A stretch of DNA of 64,000 bases from Methanolacinia petrolearia DSM 11571 (GTDB lineage Archaea > Halobacteriota > Methanomicrobia > Methanomicrobiales > Methanomicrobiaceae). Location: assembly GCF_000147875.1 (NCBI RefSeq), contig NC_014507.1, positions 62,001-126,000 on the forward strand. The letters run 5' to 3'. Shown here one piece after another: positions 5,286 to 17,063 of this stretch. The position numbers and the translations under genes are program-made. Numbering within the stretch: the first letter of the stretch is position 1; each line of letters begins with the position of its first letter. The notes under the pieces were generated by a model, which saw only the letters and a list, made by a program, of their open reading frames with translations, was not told the DNA's origin and did not search any database.

Positions 5286-6107
5286 CTATGCTGCAGCACT
5301 GCCTGTATCGGGTCTGTACAGCGTACCTGCATCCCTGACCCCGGCGGATTTTTCTTCGGAGATCTCTTTTATCGTGATAATTACACCGACCGTATCTTCA
5401 TCCCTGTATCTCCTCGGGACGATCCTCACTCTTACCATGATATTTCCCCCGCTCCGGTCCTTCAGGAAGACGGTCTCCTCGTCCTCGCCGAAATAGGCCG
5501 CCTGCGAGAGTGCCCCGGGGTCAAAGCCTGTATTCCCTGAGAAATGAAGGATCTCCGACAACGGCTTTAACAGCATCTCGGCATTCGAGAGTCCCGTGAG
5601 GTTTTCAGTATAGGGATTGATATACAGTATTCTGCCTAAAGTATTTGTGATTACGATTCCCTCCTCGTATAAGCACATCTGCTTTACGCACGAGGGTATC
5701 TTTCTCGTTCCGCTCTCCTTTGCCTTCATATTCAGTTCAAACGCTCTTATGGCCAGAGAGACGGTGGACAGAAGTTCGCTCTTGTTGAACGGTTTTGCAA
5801 GGTAACCATAGGGTTCGGCAGAGTTGGCCCTCTCGATCGTCTCCTGGTCGACGGCCCCTGTCATAAAGATGACAGGTATCCTGAAAAGGTGCGAGATGTA
5901 AGTCGCCGTCTCAATCCCGTCAATCTCACCGGCGAGACCTATGTCGGAGATTACGACATCGGGAGTAATTGCTGCGGCAGACAAGAGTGCGTTCTCTCCG
6001 CTCTCCACGATGCCTGTTATCTCGTGGCCCTCTCTCTCCAGAATTATCGACACGATCTCGGCGATTTCGAAGTTGTCTTCAACAATTAAAATTTTCTTTT
6101 CTGTCAT
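5286..6107 (-). CDS. Response regulator with PAS domain
   Basis: The receiver domain (residues 1-125) has the acidic pair E10/D11, the phosphoacceptor D55 in VVISDIG, T83 and K105 in the AKPF motif. A PAS-like domain (about residues 145-255, with NTLGRILYINPYTENLTGLS) follows. There is no DNA-binding or enzymatic output domain, as is common in methanogens. The start lies two bases downstream of the pstS-like stop, so both genes share an operon, divergent from the hybrid kinase at 7299. It is the natural phosphorelay partner of that kinase, but this is inferred from position. Confidence 0.9.
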   Translation of the reverse strand: MTEKKILIVEDNFEIAEIVSIILEREGHEITGIVESGENALLSAAAITPDVVISDIGLAGEIDGIETATYISHLFRIPVIFMTGAVDQETIERANSAEPYGYLAKPFNKSELLSTVSLAIRAFELNMKAKESGTRKIPSCVKQMCLYEEGIVITNTLGRILYINPYTENLTGLSNAEMLLKPLSEILHFSGNTGFDPGALSQAAYFGEDEETVFLKDRSGGNIMVRVRIVPRRYRDEDTVGVIITIKEISEEKSAGVRDAGTLYRPDTGSAAA

Positions 6108-6109
6108 CT

Positions 6110-7144
6110 TCAGACCTCCTGGTTAAGTTCGGCAACCGAGAAGTAGCCGACCTCATTGAAGTAATCATCTGACGAAGGGGAGGTTGCAAATTCAATGAAG
6201 TCCTTCGCCAGAGCGGAAGCGTCACTTTTCGTCACGTAATTCAGCGGCCTTGTAAGGCCGGAGATGTAGAAGGATCCGCCCCCGTCGGAATGCTCTTCAT
6301 TTCTGAGTTCGAGAAGTATGGCCTCCCTGATCTTTGTAATGTCGGAAGGAACAGCCTCTCCTGATCCTTTATCAACGATTTTAAGGATCTTTACTCCCGG
6401 GTCCGATTCGGCGTAGCCGAAATCGACGAAACCGATGGAGAACGGGTTGTCCTTTACAAGATTCAATACCTCGGAGTTTCCTTCGGCTGCGAGCTGTTTC
6501 ACTTTCCCGTTTATGCCGTAGTCTTCGGCTTCAAGCGAGGAGTCGACGTTCTTTTTTCCCGGGAACAGCCAGTTTGCAAATGTCTCTTCGGTTCCCGATT
6601 TCTCGGATCTCTGGATCACGGAATTTATGCCGGCAATATCGGCCATGGACGATATGTCCTCTGATTCGCCATTGTAGAGAGCAGAGGCTTCTTCGAACGT
6701 AATCGTGTCAATGCCGTTCATTTGCGAGGTGATTATCACTATGGCGCTTGCGCCTATGCGGTACACCTCCAGATCAGGATATGAAAGCAGTTCGGAGTCT
6801 TCGACATCCCGTGAGGCGGCCCCGATATCGGTTAGCCCGGTTCCTGCCTCTTTTATACCCATACCCGACCCCCCACCGTTAACGACAATGTCAACACCCG
6901 GATTCTCTTTCATATATGCGGCAGCGAGTATCTCCGATACCGGCTGGATTGTCGTGGACCCTGATATCGTGAGATTTTTTTGTCCTTCCCCGGCTGCACC
7001 GGCAATGCCGGCATCATCCGAAAGGCATCCGGGAGATGCTGCTGCAAGAAAAAAAATTACAATGATAAAGGTGGAGATGGCGTTTTTTTTCTGTATATTT
7101 GCAAATCCGGATTTTTTTTCCGGAGCAGAGAGCAGCATACCCAA
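6110..7144 (-). CDS. pstS: PstS-like phosphate-binding lipoprotein
   Basis: The 344-residue protein has a hydrophobic leader ending in a lipobox-like ASPGC near residue 40, then the PstS-type fold. The motif SGSTTIQPVSE, the VNGGGSGMGIKEAGTG phosphate-loop motif and AASRDVEDSE are all present, so it should bind phosphate or a related oxyanion outside the membrane. No pstC, pstA or pstB gene lies in the window. Instead it is cotranscribed with a response regulator and divergent from a sensor kinase, which suggests a sensing role. A second in-frame ATG lies two codons in. Confidence 0.9.
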   Translation of the reverse strand: MGMLLSAPEKKSGFANIQKKNAISTFIIVIFFLAAASPGCLSDDAGIAGAAGEGQKNLTISGSTTIQPVSEILAAAYMKENPGVDIVVNGGGSGMGIKEAGTGLTDIGAASRDVEDSELLSYPDLEVYRIGASAIVIITSQMNGIDTITFEEASALYNGESEDISSMADIAGINSVIQRSEKSGTEETFANWLFPGKKNVDSSLEAEDYGINGKVKQLAAEGNSEVLNLVKDNPFSIGFVDFGYAESDPGVKILKIVDKGSGEAVPSDITKIREAILLELRNEEHSDGGGSFYISGLTRPLNYVTKSDASALAKDFIEFATSPSSDDYFNEVGYFSVAELNQEV

Positions 7145-7298
7145 ATCACCTGCCAGAGGAGTCTGTGGCTGATAAAATATACTTTGCCTTAGTAAAATAT
7201 CTGATGCTACATTGAATAAGTATTAGTACGTATCAACATGTGATAACGATAGGATAATTCGATGAAGTATATCTTTATTTGATAACTTTTTAATATTG
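7145..7298. promoter_or_regulatory. Divergent promoter region of pstS-RR operon and hybrid kinase
   Basis: On the minus strand AAAGTATATTTTAT (about 7177-7190) is a good TATA box for pstS. On the plus strand AGTATATCTTTATTTGATAA (about 7266-7285) can serve the kinase gene, leaving a very short leader and no visible ribosome site. Both units can thus be controlled from one 150-base region. Confidence 0.5.
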
Positions 7299-10200
7299 AT
7301 GGCTCTTGTCGAAGGAGACTCCGGGTACGAGCTTTTTTCCCGGATCACCTCACCGTTCGGGAGAAAAGGAAGAGGCAAAGGAGAAAAACGGAAATCGATT
7401 CGCACAACGACTGCCGCGATAATTGCCGTTACCCTTCTCGGGCTGATATTTCTCCTCTATATTCTCTCCTCTGTAAGTCTCGATTCAGGTTTTTCAAGCC
7501 TTGAAGAGAGGCTGACCGGCGACAATGTGATGAGGGCGGCAAATGCGGTGAATGCCGAGGTCGACCGGCTCGATTCAATTGCAAATGCATGGGCCACATC
7601 AGAAGAGCTTCCCGAATTCATCGACAGCGGTGACACTTCGGTCGCACGTACGATATTCACCGACGGGAGGCTTGTCGATGTCGGGGTAAATATTCTGCTT
7701 ATCACCGACTCGGAGGGAAACATCCTGTGGCACAAATACATGAACCTCGACTACGGCCACCAGATGCCGACTCCCAAGAGTCTGCTCTCGCAGATCGCCG
7801 GGCATGAGGATGTGCTTAGCAACGGGACGACAAAAGGAACCTTAATGCTTAATTCAGGGCCGATGCTCATAGCATCCCGCCCTATAACGGATCCGGAATC
7901 GGGCGATCCGTTTGGAAACCTGCTTGTAGGAAGGTATCTTGACAGGAGTGAGGTTTCGTCATTATCAGCGACAACCCAGCTCGATATCTCGGTAATTGAA
8001 AACAAATCGGGTTTCGAGGAATATTTTGAAATTTTCGCGGATAAAGGGGCTGGTAATGCCGCAAACGGCAGCTCCATAATCATCAGCCCCGTCGATGACA
8101 AATACGTTGCCGGATTTTCGGAGATCTATGATATTTACGGCGAACCGGTAGCGGTTCTTCAGGTCACTGAACCGAGAGACGTGACGATTTACGGAAAAGG
8201 CGTCCTCAGCCTGCTGATAATGATGCTCGTACTCGCATCCGTAATCTTCGGTGCGGTCATCCTCGTCCTGATCCAGAGATCGGTCGTATCGAGGCTTGAG
8301 AACCTGAACAGGGAGATCAAAACTGTTGCCATGACAGAGAGTCCTGAAGGCAGGATCAACATCGAAGGCGACGACGAGATATCGTCCGTTGGTTCGGCGA
8401 TCAACATGATGCTGGAGTCGATAGAAAAAGGGAAAGAGCAGTACAGCAGGCTTTTCGACAACGCAAATGACCTGATCTTTACGATCGATGCAGACGGGGC
8501 GTTCGTCTCGGCCAACGGGGCGATGGAGAAAAAAACTGAACTTGAAGACGGGGGGCTTGCCGGCAGAAAGATAGAGGAATTTGTCAGGAACGGCGGAATG
8601 GAAAAGATCCGGCCTCTTCTCGCCGGGAACGGCATGGAGAACAGCGGCAAGACGGAGATAACACTGCTCTCGGCCAGCGGAGAAGAATACCTGGTAGAGT
8701 TCAGCGCCCAGCCCTTAACCGGTTCCGATGAGATGACCGGGTTTTTCGTTATAGCGAGGGATGTCACTGCGAAGAGGAAGGCCGAGGAGGAGCTGAAAAA
8801 CCACAGGAACCGCCTCCGGGAGCTTGTAACGGAGAGAACGGCCCAGCTCGAGCATGCCAACAGCGAACTTGTAAAGGAGGTCGAAGAGAGGATAAGGTTC
8901 GAAGAGAGCCTTGCGGAAGAGAAGGAAAGGCTTTCGGTCACCTTGTCATCCATTGCCGAGGGCGTTATCGCTACGGATCACCTCGGGTATGTGACGCTTA
9001 TCAACAGGGAGGCATCTGCAAAGACCGGGATAAGTGCCGGGAATTCCGAAGGAAAAAGGATTGACAGCATCTTCATGCTCGAAAAAGCAGGCAGGCCGGA
9101 GGACATCGGTTCGATAGTTCTCGATGTTATATCTGACAGGAAGGTCTTCGAGATTAACACCGAGGTCGATCTCTTCGACTCGGAAGGGAATGCGTATCCT
9201 GTTGTCCTGTCTGTCTCACCGCTTACAGACAGGTCCGGGACATCGATCGGTGCCGTAATCGTATTTCGCGAGATATCGGAACGGCTGAGATGGGAGGAGG
9301 AAGTCTTGAGAAGGCAGAAGCTCGAATCGCTCGGAGTCCTTGCGGGAGGGATAGCCCACGACTTCAATAACATACTTACGGCGATCTCCGGGAATATCGG
9401 TCTTGCGAGAAATATGGCCGAAGGAGATGTCGACGTCTCCTCCCGCCTGGAGGAGGCTGAAAAGGCGATATCGAGGGCCAAGGATATCACCCGGCAGCTT
9501 ATTACGTTTTCAAAAGGCGGAGAGCCTGTCAGGCAGGTCCAGGATATAAAGTCGATGATCAGGGAGTCGGCGGAATTTGTCTCTCACGGGAGCAATGTAA
9601 AATTGTACTTTGATATCGCAGACGATCTCTCCAATGTCGAGGTCGACAAGGGGCAGATCAGCCAGGTGATAGAGAACCTTGTGATAAACTCCATACAGGC
9701 GATGGCAGACGGAGGAAATATCTACGTGCAGGCCAGGAATGCAGGCGTAATCTCCGGAAAGGACGGCCTTGAAGACGGAAAATATATCGTCATATCCGTA
9801 AGGGACGACGGCAGCGGAATTCCGGAGGAATACAGGGAAAAGATCTTTGATCCCTATTTTACCACAAAAAAGAGCGGAAACGGGCTTGGGCTTGCATCCT
9901 GCATGTCGATAATAAGGAAGCACGGCGGTGCGGTAAAGCTGATTTCGGAGGTCGGTGTCGGAACCGAATTCAGGATCTACCTCCCCGCGACCGAAAGAAG
10001 TGTTGAGGCCGAAGACGGGCTCTCCGGCGGAATGCTCTCCGGTTCATCGAGAGTTCTCGTGATGGACGATGACAGGAGCATCTATGATACGATACCCCAG
10101 CTTCTGCGGGGCTACGGTTTTGACGTCGAGGCGGCATTGGACGGTGCGGAGGCGATAAGAATCTACCAGCAGTCGAAGATTCTTAAAAAATCCATAGATG

Positions 10201-10445
10201 TCTTTGTTATGGATCTTACGGTTCCGGGAGGCCTCGGGGGAGTTGAAACGATCGCCCTGCTGAGGGAGTTCGATCCCGATATACTCGCAATAGTGTCGAG
10301 CGGGTACTCGAACGATCCGGTCATGGCGGATTTCAGGGAATACGGCTTCGATGCGGTTCTCCCGAAGCCCTATAATATTGAGGATCTCGTGAGGCTTATC
10401 AACAGGCTGGTCTCTGAAAAGGAAAAAAAGGATAAGACCGGTTAA
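7299..10445 (+). CDS. Membrane hybrid histidine kinase (CHASE4-HAMP-PAS-PAS-HisKA-HATPase-REC)
   Basis: A 1048-residue sensor. Membrane helix 1 (about 38-58) and helix 2 (about 300-325) enclose an extracellular CHASE4-type domain. Then come HAMP (about 325-378), PAS (about 380-490), a coiled linker, a second PAS (about 543-660), a HisKA domain with H687 in GGIAHDFNN, an ATPase domain (about 780-897, with DDGSGIP and GLGLA) and a C-terminal receiver (about 917-1043) with D972 in VMDLTVPGG. The start is uncertain: ATG 7299 or TTG 7296, neither with a clear ribosome site. It is divergent from pstS and the PAS response regulator, which suggests a phosphate-linked phosphorelay. Confidence 0.9.
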   Translation: MALVEGDSGYELFSRITSPFGRKGRGKGEKRKSIRTTTAAIIAVTLLGLIFLLYILSSVSLDSGFSSLEERLTGDNVMRAANAVNAEVDRLDSIANAWATSEELPEFIDSGDTSVARTIFTDGRLVDVGVNILLITDSEGNILWHKYMNLDYGHQMPTPKSLLSQIAGHEDVLSNGTTKGTLMLNSGPMLIASRPITDPESGDPFGNLLVGRYLDRSEVSSLSATTQLDISVIENKSGFEEYFEIFADKGAGNAANGSSIIISPVDDKYVAGFSEIYDIYGEPVAVLQVTEPRDVTIYGKGVLSLLIMMLVLASVIFGAVILVLIQRSVVSRLENLNREIKTVAMTESPEGRINIEGDDEISSVGSAINMMLESIEKGKEQYSRLFDNANDLIFTIDADGAFVSANGAMEKKTELEDGGLAGRKIEEFVRNGGMEKIRPLLAGNGMENSGKTEITLLSASGEEYLVEFSAQPLTGSDEMTGFFVIARDVTAKRKAEEELKNHRNRLRELVTERTAQLEHANSELVKEVEERIRFEESLAEEKERLSVTLSSIAEGVIATDHLGYVTLINREASAKTGISAGNSEGKRIDSIFMLEKAGRPEDIGSIVLDVISDRKVFEINTEVDLFDSEGNAYPVVLSVSPLTDRSGTSIGAVIVFREISERLRWEEEVLRRQKLESLGVLAGGIAHDFNNILTAISGNIGLARNMAEGDVDVSSRLEEAEKAISRAKDITRQLITFSKGGEPVRQVQDIKSMIRESAEFVSHGSNVKLYFDIADDLSNVEVDKGQISQVIENLVINSIQAMADGGNIYVQARNAGVISGKDGLEDGKYIVISVRDDGSGIPEEYREKIFDPYFTTKKSGNGLGLASCMSIIRKHGGAVKLISEVGVGTEFRIYLPATERSVEAEDGLSGGMLSGSSRVLVMDDDRSIYDTIPQLLRGYGFDVEAALDGAEAIRIYQQSKILKKSIDVFVMDLTVPGGLGGVETIALLREFDPDILAIVSSGYSNDPVMADFREYGFDAVLPKPYNIEDLVRLINRLVSEKEKKDKTG

Positions 10446-10459
10446 TATTCTTTGTCGGT

Positions 10460-11218
10460 TCAGATCTCGCAGCTTTGTCTGCTGAAGAGTAGCGAGAACG
10501 AATCCGCCGGAAATGAAGACCAGTCCGCGATTTCGCAGGCCGGAGATTTACTGACGGCATTGATTCTCCTGATCTCTCTTTTTATCTTTGCTCTCTCGGC
10601 TTCCAGCCTGATCTTTTCCATGTCCTCCCACCTGTTGACAGGCGATCTTGCGATGTTAAATGCTGCATTTACATCTGCATGACAGATGTACCCGCACTCG
10701 GGGCACTGGAAGACTTTTCTGTGCCTGCGGCCGTGTGCACCGCATCTGCTGCAGATCTGAGAGGTGAACGACGGGTCGACATACAGGACGGGTATACCCC
10801 TGCGGACTGCACGGTTTTCGACCATCTGGCACAGGTGATAGAAGTACCAGTTGTTAATGGAGAAATCCGTGATGATCCCTCTTCTGTTCTTCCTCCTGAA
10901 ACGGCCGCCGGAGAGCCTTTCGAACTTGATGCCGCAGTCGAGATCAGATGCGATCCTAACGATCTCCCTGCTAAGGTATTTGTTGAGATCCCTGAGCTGT
11001 CCGGTCTCTCTTTTATCCAGCCGCTTCAGGTTTCTGGTCTTTTTCCTGTTCTTCAGTTTCTTTCGTTCCCTGTTGAATTCATCGTGGATAAGGCGGGCCT
11101 CTCTCCCGAGTTTTGCAGTAAAGCCGGTATTCGGGTCTGCGACAACTGCAATGTACCCGGTTGTGTTCAGGTCGATTCCAATCCACCGGTCGGACAATTC
11201 TGCCTGTACCTGTGTCAT
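10460..11218 (-). CDS. TnpB-like protein reduced to the RuvC nuclease and zinc-ribbon half
   Basis: The 252-residue protein holds only the catalytic half of an IS605-type OrfB/TnpB. RuvC-I is D16 (GIDLN), RuvC-II is E100 (KFERL), the zinc ribbon is C156/C159/C172/C175 and RuvC-III is D182 (HADVNAA). All active-site residues are intact, but the N-terminal WED/REC region of about 180 residues seen in full-length TnpB is absent. This is not a cut-off open frame: the ATG has GGAGGA eight bases before it and overlaps the stop of a short upstream ORF. It ends 14 bases from the kinase gene, leaving no room for a downstream guide RNA or element end. It is probably a fixed, domesticated gene; an old truncation is the alternative. 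Confidence 0.85.
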   Translation of the reverse strand: MTQVQAELSDRWIGIDLNTTGYIAVVADPNTGFTAKLGREARLIHDEFNRERKKLKNRKKTRNLKRLDKRETGQLRDLNKYLSREIVRIASDLDCGIKFERLSGGRFRRKNRRGIITDFSINNWYFYHLCQMVENRAVRRGIPVLYVDPSFTSQICSRCGAHGRRHRKVFQCPECGYICHADVNAAFNIARSPVNRWEDMEKIRLEAERAKIKREIRRINAVSKSPACEIADWSSFPADSFSLLFSRQSCEI

Positions 11219-11319
11219 GATGTAATTCCTCCTTCGAAATTCATGTGGCTTGAAATTTTTCGCGGGACGATGCTGTCTGAAAAAGAGTATTCGGGTTTAG
11301 TCTGGGTTTTTGGACCCAT
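11215..11319 (-). CDS. Possible 34-codon leader ORF coupled to the RuvC gene
   Basis: A short frame runs from ATG 11319 to TGA 11217-11215, overlapping the RuvC gene start as ATGA. The TATA box at 11341-11352 lies about 25 bases before this ATG, so the transcript would start at or next to it and be leaderless. The ribosome site of the RuvC gene lies inside this ORF. The peptide is polar and matches nothing I know. It may be a regulatory leader peptide, or just an open stretch between TATA box and gene. Confidence 0.4.
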   Translation of the reverse strand: MGPKTQTKPEYSFSDSIVPRKISSHMNFEGGITS

Positions 11320-11340
11320 GTATGATACTTTAACCCGATC

Positions 11341-11352
11341 AAATATATATCT
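11341..11352 (-). promoter_or_regulatory. TATA box of the RuvC gene, next to an inverted repeat
   Basis: AGATATATATTT on the minus strand is a strong TATA box. Just downstream (11291-11337) a nested inverted repeat, CGGGTT/AACCCG outside and TGGGT/ACCCA inside, covers the expected start site. It may be an operator, a 5' mRNA hairpin, or the relic of an IS200/IS605 left-end hairpin. Confidence 0.55.
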
Positions 11353-11466
11353 TGTCGTCAAAAATCAGTATTAGAGGCATAAATTATATTGTCACAGGTG
11401 TTTCAATGAGTTTCGAACTTAATAGAATCTTTTATGATTTTATAACACTCCATTTTAGAATACAGC

Positions 11467-12435
11467 ATGTTTTCGGATATCCAGTTTATTTCCTTCCTTA
11501 ATTATACGATAAGGGCGGTTCTTTTAATCACTGCCGGTATTATTCTCGTAAACCTGATATCCGAAACGGGTGTAATGTCGAAATTTAAGATTATCTCGGT
11601 CCCGCTCTGCCGGATCTCCGGTCTGTCGGAGGAGGCTGTTTTATCTATCCTCTCAATGGTGATAAACCCGACTGCGGGAAAGTCGATGCTCGCAGAATAC
11701 CACAGGGCCGGAAAGGTCGGGAAGGAGGAGATCGTTCCGTCGCTCATCATCGGGACTTTCCCGGCAGTATTCGGGGAATCGATATTCAGGGCCCAGTTCC
11801 CGACGGCGGTTGTAATCCTCGGCCCTGTCCTGGGAGGGATCTACACCTTCTTCAACCTGTTCTCCACCTTTATTCAGGTAATCGGGGCGCTGATATACAC
11901 CAATCTTGTGCTAAGGAGGAAAAGATCGGTTCCGGAGAAGGAGTACGAGAAGGTCGAGGCGGCTGAAAAGCTGAAGAGACCTGATATGAAATCGCTGAAG
12001 AAGGCGGTTGAAAAATCCAAAAAGCCGCTGAAGAAGATCATACCGATCACGATAATTACGATGATCGTCTTCTGGCTGCTGGGCGTGGCGGGCGTCCTCA
12101 ACTGGCTTTCGGTTATATTCGATCCCATTTTGAACCTTATCGGCCTTCCCGGTGAGGCATCGGCCGCACTCCTCGCCCAGTTCATGCACTTTTCTGCGGG
12201 GTATACAGTCGTCGGATCGATGGTGGACACCGGAATGCTCGACTTCGGCCAGGCACTCGTGACCCTCATTCTCGGGAGCATGATCCTTATAACGATGATA
12301 TACCTGAAGTACTCGGTTCCGCTGTATATCGGAATGTTCGGGAAGGACGGAATCAGGGTCGCAGTCATCGCCTACTCGGCAAGCATGGCGGCGAAGGTGA
12401 TCTGCATCGCAATCGTGATGGCGATCTTTTTTTGA
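11467..12435 (+). CDS. Nucleoside-recognition (Gate) domain membrane protein
   Basis: This 322-residue integral membrane protein carries two Gate-type blocks (about residues 15-130 and 185-320), split by a basic cytosolic linker near residues 145-190. The pattern ISGLSEEAVLSILSMVINPTAGKSM in the first half and GLPGEASAALLAQF in the second is that of the nucleoside-recognition/SpmAB-like proteins common in methanogens. The substrate is unknown. The TATA-like TTTTATGATTTTATAAC about 30 bases before the ATG, with no ribosome site, suggests a leaderless transcript. It is convergent with the lipoprotein gene downstream. Confidence 0.85.
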   Translation: MFSDIQFISFLNYTIRAVLLITAGIILVNLISETGVMSKFKIISVPLCRISGLSEEAVLSILSMVINPTAGKSMLAEYHRAGKVGKEEIVPSLIIGTFPAVFGESIFRAQFPTAVVILGPVLGGIYTFFNLFSTFIQVIGALIYTNLVLRRKRSVPEKEYEKVEAAEKLKRPDMKSLKKAVEKSKKPLKKIIPITIITMIVFWLLGVAGVLNWLSVIFDPILNLIGLPGEASAALLAQFMHFSAGYTVVGSMVDTGMLDFGQALVTLILGSMILITMIYLKYSVPLYIGMFGKDGIRVAVIAYSASMAAKVICIAIVMAIFF

Positions 12436-12457
12436 AAAATTATTGATATAATGCAGG

Positions 12458-12868
12458 TTATTCAACCTTTATAAGCCAGAAAGCATTTTTTTGCCTGTAT
12501 TCCCCTTCGGATTTGAGTTCACCTAAAAGAACGACTTCTTCACCGTTTGAAAGTCCTGAGACATCGACTGCCGGACGTGAGGTCTTATTGTCCTCGACCA
12601 TCATGTCGTACCAGACGTCGATCTTCTCCCCTCCCGATGTAAGGTGGAAGCACAGGCAGTTGAGTATACCGAGATCGCTTACCACCCCGTTAACATAAAC
12701 AGGTGTGTCGTATTCCGGATTTGCGAGGAGTTCACCTACGGAAACGCTTTCATTGTCCGTATACTGGTCTTCATCGGTGCACCCGGAGACAAGGAGCAGG
12801 GCAGTAAGAAGCAGGATGCAGGTTCCCCATTTTGCCAGGCATGAGGGGATATCGTCCTGAAAGATCAT
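12458..12868 (-). CDS. OB-fold lipoprotein
   Basis: A 136-residue protein with a signal segment (about residues 14-30) ending in the lipobox LLVSGC, so it is likely anchored on the outside of the membrane. The mature part looks like a small OB-fold domain (VSVGELLANPEYDTPVYVNG, then NGEEVVLLGELK), as in tRNA_anti-like/NirD-type extracytoplasmic OB proteins. A CLCF motif gives one pair of close cysteines. Partner and ligand are unknown. It stands alone downstream of mch. Confidence 0.75.
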   Translation of the reverse strand: MIFQDDIPSCLAKWGTCILLLTALLLVSGCTDEDQYTDNESVSVGELLANPEYDTPVYVNGVVSDLGILNCLCFHLTSGGEKIDVWYDMMVEDNKTSRPAVDVSGLSNGEEVVLLGELKSEGEYRQKNAFWLIKVE

Positions 12869-12988
12869 ACTGGTGTTTTTGGAGTTTCATATTTATTATA
12901 TTTCTACTGGCAGATTGTACCGGGGAAACCGGTCTTTTTGCGGGTTTAATTCGAAAATACGCCATGATCCCGGGTTTAAATTGGTACA

Positions 12989-13011
12989 AAAAAGGGGAAT
13001 CTGAAAAAAAT
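12989..13011 (-). terminator. Oligo-T terminator after mch
   Basis: On the minus strand T7 follows the mch stop directly, and T6 lies a further 10 bases downstream, the usual archaeal terminator form. A small hairpin ACCGG/CCGGT with a five-base loop lies further on, near 12918-12932. Confidence 0.6.
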
Positions 13012-13959
13012 TTAGAGAAGCCCGAAGGATTTGAGTGTTACTTCGGGGTTGATAGCGCCTACGCGGTAGACGACGCCTTCTGATAATTCGTTTATGACGA
13101 CCTCTGCCGGCGAGAAGAGGTTCGTGTCTATCTGGTAGAAGTCAAAGTTCGCCTTCTTGAACGTGTCGTAGAACGGCTCTCCGTATGACGAGGACTTGTT
13201 GGACGGGATCTTGTCGAGATAGTCCTTGATCTCCGGTGCTCTCATCGTGAGGTAGATCTGGCCGTGGTAGATGGTTGCATCGTTCGTGCATCCCATTGCC
13301 CTTGTCGAATCCTTCTTCACAGGGGGAATCGGGGCGGTTCCCATCGCGGACTCGACCTTCTTCGTATCGAAGCCGAGCTCGTTGAGCTTGTAGATTGCTG
13401 TCTCTACACAGCGGCCCGAGACCTGAATAGAACCGACGATCGATGCCGTAGGTGCGACGACCGCACATACGTTCGCGACATCGACACCGCACTTCTCGGC
13501 TATGTTCTCCATGACCTCTCCGTTGGGGAGCTTGTCGGACTCGAGACAGATGACCGCATAGTCGCTCTCATCCTCGTATTCGATGACTTCGTATGTGTGC
13601 TTGGGCATCAGCGAGAGTGCACGTGCCGGGCCGCTTCCCATCGCGAAGAAGTTGCCGACCTTTACAGTCCATCCGGCCTTCTGTGCGCCGAGGCAGGAGA
13701 TTGCCGGGAAGTCGGTGTTTACATCGATGAACGGCATGGGAATTTCGTTTATTTTGCCGTTCCTGAACGTAATCTCCGAGAGGCCGCCCATGCAGATCTC
13801 AGTAAAACGCTTTCCTGCCTGGTATCCTCCTATTGCACTTACACCACAGTCGACTAAACGTGCACCGTTGTCGAGCTGGTGGAACTCAACATTGTAATCC
13901 TCCGGAAACTCCGCGAGGTCCTCAAAAAGATCGAGAGCAATTTCATTGACACTTATCAT
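13012..13959 (-). CDS. mch: Methenyltetrahydromethanopterin cyclohydrolase
   Basis: The 315-residue Mch catalyses the reversible conversion of formyl-H4MPT to methenyl-H4MPT, the third step of methane formation from CO2, in the cytosol. The family pattern is clear across the whole length (NGARLVDCGV, ICMGGLSEITF, PMPFIDVNTD, FFAMGSGPARAL, VSGRCVETA). I place the start at the ATG 13959, which has AGGAGG eight bases before it; the upstream in-frame ATG would add eight residues and include that site. It is transcribed alone, as often in methanogens, with a strong TATA box behind it. Confidence 0.97.
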   Translation of the reverse strand: MISVNEIALDLFEDLAEFPEDYNVEFHQLDNGARLVDCGVSAIGGYQAGKRFTEICMGGLSEITFRNGKINEIPMPFIDVNTDFPAISCLGAQKAGWTVKVGNFFAMGSGPARALSLMPKHTYEVIEYEDESDYAVICLESDKLPNGEVMENIAEKCGVDVANVCAVVAPTASIVGSIQVSGRCVETAIYKLNELGFDTKKVESAMGTAPIPPVKKDSTRAMGCTNDATIYHGQIYLTMRAPEIKDYLDKIPSNKSSSYGEPFYDTFKKANFDFYQIDTNLFSPAEVVINELSEGVVYRVGAINPEVTLKSFGLL

Positions 13960-13997
13960 GAATAATCCTCCTGAATCTAACATTGAACCAGCAAAAG

Positions 13998-14010
13998 TTA
14001 TAATATTTTT
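13998..14010 (-). promoter_or_regulatory. TATA box of mch
   Basis: AAATATTATAAC on the minus strand lies about 45 bases before the mch ATG, which leaves a leader of about 20 bases containing the AGGAGG site. A start separate from cdc6 fits a highly expressed gene. Confidence 0.6.
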
Positions 14011-14030
14011 TAAATGACTCTGGAGGCGAG

Positions 14031-15164
14031 TCAGTCGAGAATCTCGAGTACACGGGCCGGATCGTACCTGAGCGTGATTAATCTCGTCCGGCCTCTGCCT
14101 TCGCGATAGTTCAGGTTCAAAAGCCTCATCGCGTCAAGCTTTTTGACGATTTCGTAGTACCTCGTATAGCCCATCTTCCGGCTCTCTTTGATCAGTTCGA
14201 ATATCGCCCCTGCAGAGAGCTCTTTTTTGTCCATACTGTTCTCTGCAATGATTTTCAGCACGTCTCTCTCCTCGTCTTTGAGTGTCTTTGCAGTATGGGA
14301 GAGGTGCAGGTATTTCGAGATCTCATATGCGCGGCAGATATCCTCCCTCTCAAGGCTTCTTCTTGCGTCGTTCTCCGCGTAAAGGGTCGCTCTCTTGAGC
14401 AGGTCGATTCCTACCCTGAGGTCGCCGAGATTAGCGGTCTGTTCGACGACGAGATCGAGCATGGCCTCGTTTACAACGTTCGGGTAGAGGCCCTGCTGTA
14501 TCCTCTGGTTTAGGATCTCGTGGATCTCGTCCTCCCCGTAAGGCGGGAAGTAGATATCGGTCGGCCGGAATACGGACGAAACCCTGCTGTCGACCTCCCT
14601 CATCAGATCGACGCCCATGTCGGATATTATGGCGATTACCCCGATCCTGACTCCTTCATAGGATTCGTGAGCCCGGAGGAGGGTGTACAGGACCTTGTTG
14701 ATCTCGTTTTCGTAAAGAAGATAGTTTGCATCGTCGAGGCAGACGAGGAGGACAGCGTCCTTGTCGAGTATCAGTTTGCAGACCGAGTCGAAGAGAGACT
14801 TGAAAGAAGTCCCGGAAGCAGGCGGCTGCTGCCCCGAAAGCTTCCTGTAGATCCTTGAAAATATTGCGAACTTGGTGTTTTCAATCTGGCAGTTGACGTG
14901 TACCGGGATTATCCTGTGAGTGGCTTCTTCGATATCCAGGAAAAGCTTCTTTATGCTCGTCGTCTTCCCCGTGCCCGGGGGCCCCCTGCATATGGTATTG
15001 AGCGGTCTTGCACCCTTCATGCCGGGCCTGACCTGAAATGCGAGCTCCCTCATCTGGGTGTCGCGGAAATTGAACTGCTCGGGGACAAAGTCGATCTCGA
15101 ATACCTCGGGGTCACGAAACAGCGTCTCCTCCCACATGAGCAGATTCTTCTTCATATTAGACAT
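14031..15164 (-). CDS. cdc6: Orc1/Cdc6-type replication initiator
   Basis: This AAA+ protein has Walker A GPPGTGKTTS near residue 65, a Walker B of unusual form (LLVCLDDANYL instead of the common LDEID), a sensor/arginine region (VDSRVSSVFRP) and a C-terminal winged helix (about residues 290-377) for DNA binding. It should recognise origins and load the MCM helicase. I start at ATG 15164, behind AGGTGAAA; a GTG two codons upstream overlaps that site. I could not find clear origin-recognition-box repeats in the short flanks, so an origin here is not supported. It precedes mch on the same strand. Confidence 0.9.
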   Translation of the reverse strand: MSNMKKNLLMWEETLFRDPEVFEIDFVPEQFNFRDTQMRELAFQVRPGMKGARPLNTICRGPPGTGKTTSIKKLFLDIEEATHRIIPVHVNCQIENTKFAIFSRIYRKLSGQQPPASGTSFKSLFDSVCKLILDKDAVLLVCLDDANYLLYENEINKVLYTLLRAHESYEGVRIGVIAIISDMGVDLMREVDSRVSSVFRPTDIYFPPYGEDEIHEILNQRIQQGLYPNVVNEAMLDLVVEQTANLGDLRVGIDLLKRATLYAENDARRSLEREDICRAYEISKYLHLSHTAKTLKDEERDVLKIIAENSMDKKELSAGAIFELIKESRKMGYTRYYEIVKKLDAMRLLNLNYREGRGRTRLITLRYDPARVLEILD

Positions 15165-15232
15165 TTTCACCTGAAACCTATTAATTCATGCCTTAGGCGG
15201 TGTGAAAGAAAGTATGCGTTCGCAGTCCGCCT

Positions 15233-15703
15233 CTATTTCTGCATCTCCTCGAGGCATTTCTTGCAGAGCGAGCGTCCCATGAAGATCTGCGAGAGCTGCT
15301 CCTCGGCCTTCGAGATCGGCCTTCCGCACGAAGAGCATGTAAACCCTGTATTTTCAACAGGTTTTTCCTCCGGCAAGGGCTTTTCCTGAGCCGGTTCCGA
15401 GACAGGAATTGCGGGTTCGGCCGGAGTTTGAAGGATCTCAGGTGCCGGATACGTCTCCTCTTCCACTATATTGGTAATTACCGGCTCCCCGGGATTCTCC
15501 AGCACCCTCCTCCTGTAGTTGTCGATCCTCTTCTTCGTCTCCGGGTCGTTTCTCCCGAACCTGGAGAGAACGCTGTCGAGGTATTCTATAAGCTCGTCGG
15601 CATCGCAGCCGTCTTTTGCCTCCCCTTCGACCTCGACCTTCAGGTTCTCGTAGTTCTCAAGATTTACCGTAATTCCGATTGATAGCTTCCTTTTTTCGCT
15701 CAT
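15233..15703 (-). CDS. Hypothetical protein with C-terminal C4 zinc finger
   Basis: The 156-residue protein has an N-terminal alpha/beta part (about residues 1-75, including EVEGEAKDGCDADELIEYLDSV). A proline- and glutamate-rich linker (about 78-118) follows, and then a C-terminal zinc finger of the form CSSCG...CKKC (about 121-152). It resembles small archaeal zinc-ribbon proteins of unknown role. It lies directly upstream of cdc6 on the same strand with about 70 bases between, so cotranscription is possible. An inverted repeat AGGCGG/CCGCCT (15195-15232) follows its stop. Confidence 0.6.
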   Translation of the reverse strand: MSEKRKLSIGITVNLENYENLKVEVEGEAKDGCDADELIEYLDSVLSRFGRNDPETKKRIDNYRRRVLENPGEPVITNIVEEETYPAPEILQTPAEPAIPVSEPAQEKPLPEEKPVENTGFTCSSCGRPISKAEEQLSQIFMGRSLCKKCLEEMQK

Positions 15704-15805
15704 GTATATTCCTGCACTGAATTATTCGTTTTCAGGTTATCGATGATCTGTATTATTGCGTCCCGGAACAAAAGAGTATTCAGGTTCTGCCGGGCGGCTA
15801 TTTCT

Positions 15806-15870
15806 GCGGCAGATGATGAAAGTTACCCCCACTGACCGCCCGGAATGATGAAGCAGGGATCTGATGCCGC
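15806..15870 (+). ncRNA. C/D box sRNA (2'-O-methylation guide)
   Basis: All parts of an archaeal C/D sRNA are present in order. A 6-bp terminal stem GCGGCA/TGCCGC (15806-15811 with 15865-15870) encloses box C ATGATGA (15813-15819), a 12-base guide AAGTTACCCCCA (15820-15831), box D' CTGA (15832-15835), a 9-base spacer, box C' ATGATGA (15845-15851), a 9-base guide AGCAGGGAT (15852-15860) and box D CTGA (15861-15864). The 12-base first guide has the canonical archaeal spacing; the second is short. It lies in the gap between two minus-strand genes and would be bound by L7Ae, Nop5 and fibrillarin. Confidence 0.85.
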
Positions 15871-15887
15871 TTTGTAAGTTCAGCGAT

Positions 15888-17063
15888 TTACTCTTTTTTC
15901 TCCGCCTGCCCTAAAAGGAGCTTCATGAACATATCCCCTTCGATAAGACCGAAACCGCCGTTTTCAGCCGCTTCTTTTTCGGAATAGCAGGTCGTTCTGT
16001 CCCGTCCCCTGCCGACGATGATGAACGGAACCGGATTGGATGTATGCGTCTTGAGCCTGATTGGAGTAGGGTGATCCGGCAGAATTCCGATGGCCGCATC
16101 CGTACTCTCGAGGATCATCCCTACCGCTTCGTCAAGACGCTCGATCGCCTTAACCTTCTCTTCGATGCTGCCCATATGCCCGGCCTCGTCAGGCGCCTCG
16201 ACATGCATGTAGATGAAGTCGAGCCTCTTCAGACCTTCGAGTGCATATTTCGCCTTCGCCATATAGTCTGTATCGAGAAATCCGGTCGCACCGGGTACGG
16301 TTATAATCTCCATTCCTGCAAGCGTCGCTATGCCGTTCAGGAGGTCCACAGCCGAGATCATTCCGCCCGAAACCCCGTACTTCTCCTTAAATGGCTCCAT
16401 CGACGGTTTTTTGCCGCCACTCCACGGCCATATTCCCGTTGCCGGCTTTTCACCGCGGGCTATCCGCTCGCGGTTTACAGGGTGGTCTTTGAAGACTTCG
16501 GCGGCAATATTCATCGCTTCGAGCAAAATCTCCCTGTCGGGTCCTTTTGGTACATGCGGATCGATCTCCTGCCCGACGATGTCATGGGGTGGTGCCGATT
16601 CCGACCCTTTTCCGCCCTGAAGGATGAGAAGATTCCTGTAACTGACACCGGGGTACACTCTTATGCCCTCAGGGAGGGCTTTGTTTAAGGATTCGATAAG
16701 CCTGGGGCCGTCGTCTCCAGTTATGTGCCCTGCGGAGAAATCAGCCATTACCCCGTCTTCGATAGTCACCAGGTTGCAGCGGTAGGCAATCGCGTCCTCG
16801 CCGAAATCTATGCCCATGCTCACCGCTTCGAGCGGTCCCCGTCCTGTGTAGCATTCACGCGGGTCGTACCCGAGGACGGAGAGGTTTGCGACATCGCTTC
16901 CCGGAACCATTCCGTCGGGAACCGTTTTCAGCATCCCGCAGGCACCGTTTGAAGCCGCCCAGTCCATGTACGGTGTATTCGCGTATTCTATCGGTGTCTT
17001 TCCGCCGAGTTCCTCCAGCGGCTCGTCGGCCATTCCGTCGCCGAGAATTACAATTGCCTTCAT
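15888..17063 (-). CDS. apgM: Archaeal cofactor-independent phosphoglycerate mutase
   Basis: The 391-residue enzyme interconverts 3- and 2-phosphoglycerate in glycolysis/gluconeogenesis. It belongs to the alkaline-phosphatase-like metalloenzymes: the N-terminal metal and serine region (ILGDGMADEP, then VPGSDVANLSVLGYDP with the catalytic serine) and the C-terminal metal residues (YMHVEAPDEAGHMG, GILPDHPTP) are complete. Its start overlaps the stop of the epimerase gene by four bases (ATGA), so the two are coupled. It may also act on related phosphonopyruvate-like substrates, but the length and motifs fit ApgM. Confidence 0.93.
   Translation of the reverse strand: MKAIVILGDGMADEPLEELGGKTPIEYANTPYMDWAASNGACGMLKTVPDGMVPGSDVANLSVLGYDPRECYTGRGPLEAVSMGIDFGEDAIAYRCNLVTIEDGVMADFSAGHITGDDGPRLIESLNKALPEGIRVYPGVSYRNLLILQGGKGSESAPPHDIVGQEIDPHVPKGPDREILLEAMNIAAEVFKDHPVNRERIARGEKPATGIWPWSGGKKPSMEPFKEKYGVSGGMISAVDLLNGIATLAGMEIITVPGATGFLDTDYMAKAKYALEGLKRLDFIYMHVEAPDEAGHMGSIEEKVKAIERLDEAVGMILESTDAAIGILPDHPTPIRLKTHTSNPVPFIIVGRGRDRTTCYSEKEAAENGGFGLIEGDMFMKLLLGQAEKKE

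Follow-up and report, generated by a model that had tools for sequence, protein, structure and literature searches.

The CRISPR enzyme Cas12 descends from TnpB, the nuclease of IS200/IS605 insertion sequences (IS). In ISDra2 TnpB, the WED domain (residues 1–12 and 117–176) and the REC domain (residues 13–116) read the transposon-associated motif (TAM) and share with RuvC the holding of the omega-RNA scaffold and of the heteroduplex (PMC10097598). IscB and IsrB are compact, RuvC-bearing relatives of Cas9 without REC, which is replaced by a large omega-RNA (PMC10097598), and TldR proteins are TnpB derivatives with a host-side role in which the nuclease was lost but guide and DNA binding were kept (PMC13418256). 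Here, we describe a gene in a 64,000-nucleotide stretch of the Methanolacinia petrolearia DSM 11571 genome (NC_014507.1, positions 62,001 to 126,000; hereafter, the window) with the opposite composition, as its 252-amino-acid product keeps the nuclease residues and lacks the guide-binding half. Judged from the sequences, an IS605-type tnpB of an archaeal clade marked by the motif GVDxNTTGH lost its WED/REC half once, before or during the Methanomicrobiales radiation; what remained, a RuvC+TNB gene, is now a chromosomal gene that is mostly single-copy and is passed on at fixed loci. The metal-binding triad and zinc ribbon were kept, while losses fell on residues of the probable surfaces for guide RNA and heteroduplex. 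Searches of the open-access literature turned up no account of a RuvC-only TnpB family, and prior mention elsewhere is possible.

The gene encodes the catalytic half of TnpB

The coding features of the gene, in window positions, are as follows.

10460..11218, minus strand: coding sequence of the RuvC+TNB-only TnpB derivative, 252 amino acids, stop codon included (open reading frame, Pfam and NCBIfam matches)
11171..11173, minus strand: codon of the RuvC-I catalytic Asp16, motif WIGIDLNTTG (invariant in 52 short and 45 full-length sequences)
10919..10921, minus strand: codon of the RuvC-II catalytic Glu100 (invariant in 42 aligned relatives and in the 52 short and 45 full-length sequences)
10673..10675, minus strand: codon of the RuvC-III catalytic Asp182, motif HADVNAAFNI (invariant in the same alignments)
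10694..10753, minus strand: TNB zinc ribbon, C156–C175 (Pfam Cas12f1-like_TNB, PF07282, E 3.1e-23; four cysteines invariant)
10463..10645, minus strand: C-terminal tail, residues 192–252, with a predicted helix at 196–223 and then a hydrophobic end, FSLLF (prediction; constraint weaker than in the core)

The window protein corresponds to the C-terminal half of TnpB, with RuvC residues D16, E100 and D182, four zinc cysteines in a CxxC...CxxC arrangement (156, 159, 172 and 175) and a tail of about 60 amino acids. The triad and the cysteines are invariant in the 42 aligned relatives. The NCBIfam model NF040570 was matched at positions 192–388 of 389 only (E 2.6e-35, above the curated cut-off), and since the match begins at model position 192, WED and REC are absent. 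The frame starts with an ATG at 11218 and contains no internal stops. An earlier note on this DNA had claimed that the three RuvC carboxylates and the zinc ribbon are kept, that the N-terminal half of TnpB is missing and that the frame is uninterrupted, and each of these points held. An AlphaFold model, with 42 natural sequences as input, had a mean predicted local distance difference test score (pLDDT) of 80.7. Its residues 3–194 matched the RuvC-TNB parts of Cas12f (7wju; Z 18.8, root-mean-square deviation 3.9, 180 residues) and of TnpB (8h1j; Z 14.2, root-mean-square deviation 3.4, 163 residues).

The gene most resembles the GVDxNTTGH clade of archaeal IS200/IS605 TnpB proteins of about 345 amino acids, with which it shares the RuvC triad, the TNB ribbon and 46%–50% identity over the core. 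Unlike IS200/IS605 TnpB, it is short, has no WED/REC, TnpA or IS ends, sits at a fixed locus and has lost guide-side residues. The window protein is the single Pfam TNB-domain match in the 2,843,290-bp single-contig genome, which has no match to Y1 TnpA. With one copy, no TnpA in the genome and conserved neighbourhoods, the gene does not show the mobile-element carriage typical of TnpB. Cas12f and Cas12u give the best structural matches of the RuvC-TNB core, and the PADLOC Cas12u3 model matched the C-terminal half (E 5e-34). However, the window protein is half their size, lacks REC and WED and has no adjacent array; no repeats suggesting IS ends or a CRISPR array were found in window positions 6000–16000. 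It is like IscB and IsrB in its compact, REC-less form, but no omega-RNA was found here by Rfam or consensus-fold scans near the gene. The PADLOC model PDLC01039 is named "Csx1" but covers most of the core of these RuvC proteins (E 1.3e-21), which points to a misnamed TnpB-like family.

The short form is a single clade at fixed loci

Strong matches were present in 59 of the 232 Methanomicrobiales genomes, and five of these had full-length copies only. The remaining 54 genomes carry the short form and span four families, and this conservation excludes chance for the window open reading frame. The short form typically starts 7–20 codons before the motif W-[IVL]-G-[IV]-D-L-N, with 11–13 codons in most members of families f1, f4 and f5. 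Some upstream frames are open for longer, yet without similarity to the N-terminal half. Three members from genus g39 (L093, L094 and L097) have no in-frame ATG, GTG or TTG before the RuvC motif; their start is uncertain, and a non-standard codon is seemingly needed.

The 52 short sequences in the tree formed one clade (support 99/99) apart from 15 full-length relatives, and no remnant of the N-terminal half was found near the 53 short genes examined. A recent truncation would fit neither the single clade nor the missing remnants, and we reject it. Outside the Methanomicrobiales, GTDB-wide and viral-contig scans found the N-terminal half in almost all relatives of the clade, the exceptions being broken, edge-cut or more distant copies. 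A split TnpB with its N-terminal half in trans also found no support, as searches of 12 carrier genomes returned nothing convincing (best E 0.41, taken as spurious). TnpA lay within three genes of full-length Methanomicrobiales copies in five of six checked. Presence of the short form showed no association with IS605 TnpA among Methanomicrobiales genomes (Fisher p 0.82). A link to CRISPR could not be discriminated by Cas1, since it occurs in 219 of the 232 genomes.

The gene is mostly single-copy; one genome, G169, is an exception, with two different short copies (L063 and L098). Flanking genes are conserved within families, at family-specific loci. Upstream in f5 are genes for a membrane protein of about 600 amino acids, a diphthine-ammonia-ligase-like protein and a sugar kinase, often with a K+ channel gene downstream. 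Members of f4 have HAD and kinase-like proteins upstream and a K+ channel or HEAT-like protein downstream (f4 and f5 neighbours were named by eye from sequence). The window genus and G009 share the same histidine kinase neighbour. Between families, the K+ channel is common to f4 and f5 (39%–53% identity) and a Gate gene to f1 and f3 (48%–49%). Relatives without the gene showed no full-length TnpB at the locus; their Gate gene lies in other surroundings. The earlier note had held that the gene does not look like a recent deletion, and had proposed looking for orthologues, a fixed locus and purifying selection, with a full-length TnpB at this locus in close relatives as the contrary outcome. The single origin across four families, the same architecture and similar start in related genomes and the conserved neighbourhoods all agree with it, and the nearest full-length relatives form a separate clade.

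Selection and residue retention

Pairwise ratios of nonsynonymous to synonymous substitution rates (dN/dS), for pairs with unsaturated dS, were 0.015–0.26 in the core and 0.13–0.54 in the looser tail. Purifying selection on the core thus accompanies an intact active site. We compared the 52 short with the 45 full-length sequences residue by residue. Fully kept in the short forms were the triad, the four cysteines, P149 and the TNB residues S153, R165, K168 and F170. Among the residues at least 85% conserved in full-length sequences and lost in short ones were K189, Y190, R194 and Q198 in RuvC helix 1, S263-W264 and Y275-K276 (numbered as in L061); H222-K223 were partly lost. Many short members still have some of the basic residues in the RuvC helices.

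In ISDra2 TnpB, RuvC helices 1 and 2 bear basic omega-RNA contacts, H262 and K263 contact the pseudoknot region, and Y309 and W313 stack on the first guide-target pair (PMC10097598). Matched by motif position, not by a solved complex, the residues lost here would be ISDra2-type guide-RNA and heteroduplex contacts. We interpret this pattern as selection having retained the cutting machinery and let go of what is likely the guide interface. Residue conservation thus supports the description, made in the earlier note, of a putative active-site-intact nuclease with its targeting half gone.

One Methanoculleus branch has become shorter still. Two members of the Methanoculleus group are 179 amino acids long, with 57 rather than 84 residues separating the first catalytic residue from the second (27 fewer). 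The model of this form is confidently RuvC-like (pLDDT 81.8, predicted template modelling score 0.77), and a single helix takes the place of the two seen in other members. The tail also varies. In most families, it has a basic, partly helical segment and a hydrophobic end (ENLLAVLE, FSLLF or GLFSLLD), and most Methanoculleus members have no C-terminal tail. Three short members (L053, L064 and L082) keep the IS605-like tail motif GSTDTP that is present in full-length copies, consistent with descent from the full-length clade.

Expression signals and conserved leaders

The upstream neighbour of the window gene is a divergent Gate/nucleoside recognition gene (11467–12435). Downstream, a convergent histidine kinase gene has its stop codon ending 14 bp from the stop of the window gene, which leaves no room for an IS right end or guide segment beyond the gene. 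The 14-bp gap and the absence of repeats argue against an omega-RNA overlapping the 3' end, although an RNA within the coding sequence would be compatible with the sequence. The following signals precede the start codon.

11227..11232, minus strand: GGAGGA ribosome-binding site, 8 nt before the ATG (sequence)
11342..11353, minus strand: TATA-like AT-rich box AAGATATATATT, 135–124 nt before the ATG (position identical in L050 and L051)
11254..11320, minus strand: conserved leader with blocks CATGGGTC and CGCGAAAAATT, spaced 55–56 nt (G000, G001, G002 and G009)

The box and the well-spaced ribosome site bear out the claim that the gene has its own expression signals, and the convergent stop bears out the claim that there is no space for a guide RNA beyond it. 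The two leader blocks each occur once in the four f1 genomes that have them, always upstream of the RuvC+TNB gene, and the f1 leader is about 100 nt long. They are kept in G009 despite a different upstream gene. Transcription of the window gene is predicted to begin near position −104. A different conserved leader, about 130 nt upstream of the gene, is found in the Methanoregulaceae (L057–L081 and L086). It has a TATA-like box, a GGAGG about 85 nt before the start and the block TTGTACAGCNGTTGAA about 35 nt before the start. The Methanoregulaceae GTG start is embedded in AGGTGATC, which we take to be complementary to the 16S 3' end. RNAalifold gave no stable consensus fold for the f1 or Methanoregulaceae leaders, and Rfam returned nothing above gathering near the window gene and matched neither leader.

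A proposed host RuvC endonuclease and its alternatives

We consider it fairly probable that the family is an ancient, host-domesticated TnpB catalytic core, serving the host as a RuvC endonuclease that has given up the TnpB-type guide. The earlier note had suggested a domesticated nuclease with a new partner. Domestication is borne out by vertical inheritance at fixed loci under purifying selection, but the partner is not, as the families have no conserved neighbour common to all of them. The protein would be a metal-dependent endonuclease free of a TnpB-type guide, since TAM reading and holding of the omega-RNA scaffold in the TnpB manner would be impossible without WED and REC. We infer that it may cleave single-stranded or structured nucleic acid, reached through the TNB ribbon, and that specificity could come from a partner or from substrate structure. 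In many members, the added C-terminal helix and hydrophobic end may provide the partner contact.

Several points weigh against this proposal. About three quarters of the order lack the gene, which is hence dispensable, and the want of a neighbour shared by every family counts here as well. It is motif position that links the lost residues to ISDra2 contacts, and an RNA or a substitute for the N-terminal lobe may have gone unrecognised.

The alternative that survives best, though unlikely, is an RNase-type regulator. Its RuvC core would have RNA as substrate, possibly the mRNA of the gene itself, and would bind or cleave the conserved 5' leader and regulate itself or other transcripts, with the ancestral cutting of its own mRNA kept and DNA targeting lost. 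TnpB does use its RuvC site to cut its own mRNA (PMC10278001), and the f1 leader with its two conserved, uniquely placed blocks, like the different leader in the Methanoregulaceae, would suit such a role. However, the leaders show no relation between families and no consensus fold and may be just transcription factor sites, and RNA cleavage by TnpB needs the scaffold binding that is lost here.

We regard it as rather doubtful that the protein is still RNA-guided, with a separate protein or a larger RNA in place of the WED/REC lobe. The IscB/IsrB line, where large omega-RNAs do this, shows that small guided relatives without REC exist (PMC10097598), and the basic RuvC-helix residues that persist in many members would fit. 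The searches in trans in 12 genomes, the lack of room 3' of the window gene and the lack of any Rfam match or consensus structure around it argue against this, as do the loss of guide-side residues and the missing RuvC helix in the 179-amino-acid members.

Less probable still is a non-catalytic, nucleic-acid-binding regulator that merely retains the fold, such as an IS605 TnpB competitor or a transcription factor. TldR is a precedent for a TnpB turned regulator (PMC13418256), but a protein with no use for catalysis would not be expected to hold all three carboxylates invariant in 52 sequences. In addition, the gene occurs independently of TnpA, and its own genome has no other TNB-domain protein. 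A functionless, decaying transposon remnant is very improbable, as the frequent absence (carriers are 54 of 232) and the frameshifts in two Methanoregulaceae metagenome-assembled genomes stand against a dN/dS far below 1, an invariant active site, a single origin and fixed loci, and selection data contradict decay for the clade as a whole. The two frameshifts (L104 in G145 and L105 in G143) lie near the first RuvC motif with the remainder reading on, and are either assembly errors or real losses.

The host-nuclease proposal can be put more specifically, and at this level we rate it about evenly balanced: a TnpB/Cas12-lineage family without RNA guidance, acting as a stand-alone or partner-directed host RuvC nuclease, reduced to as few as 179 amino acids and possibly self-regulating through a conserved mRNA leader.

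Implications for the TnpB lineage

All 42 scanned members match NF040570, which NCBIfam titles "RNA-guided endonuclease TnpB family protein". This title is a naming problem, since it covers proteins without the guide-RNA/DNA-binding half. A natural RuvC core of 179–252 amino acids could also serve as a minimal nuclease scaffold. The family makes it testable how a lone TnpB RuvC core acts and how a domesticated nuclease is kept safe without a guide. The family has the behaviour of a domesticated transposon gene and mirrors TldR. Cas12 and TldR are fates of TnpB in which guidance was kept, whereas in the vertically inherited archaeal RuvC+TNB family the reverse appears to have happened, cutting being retained and guidance given up.
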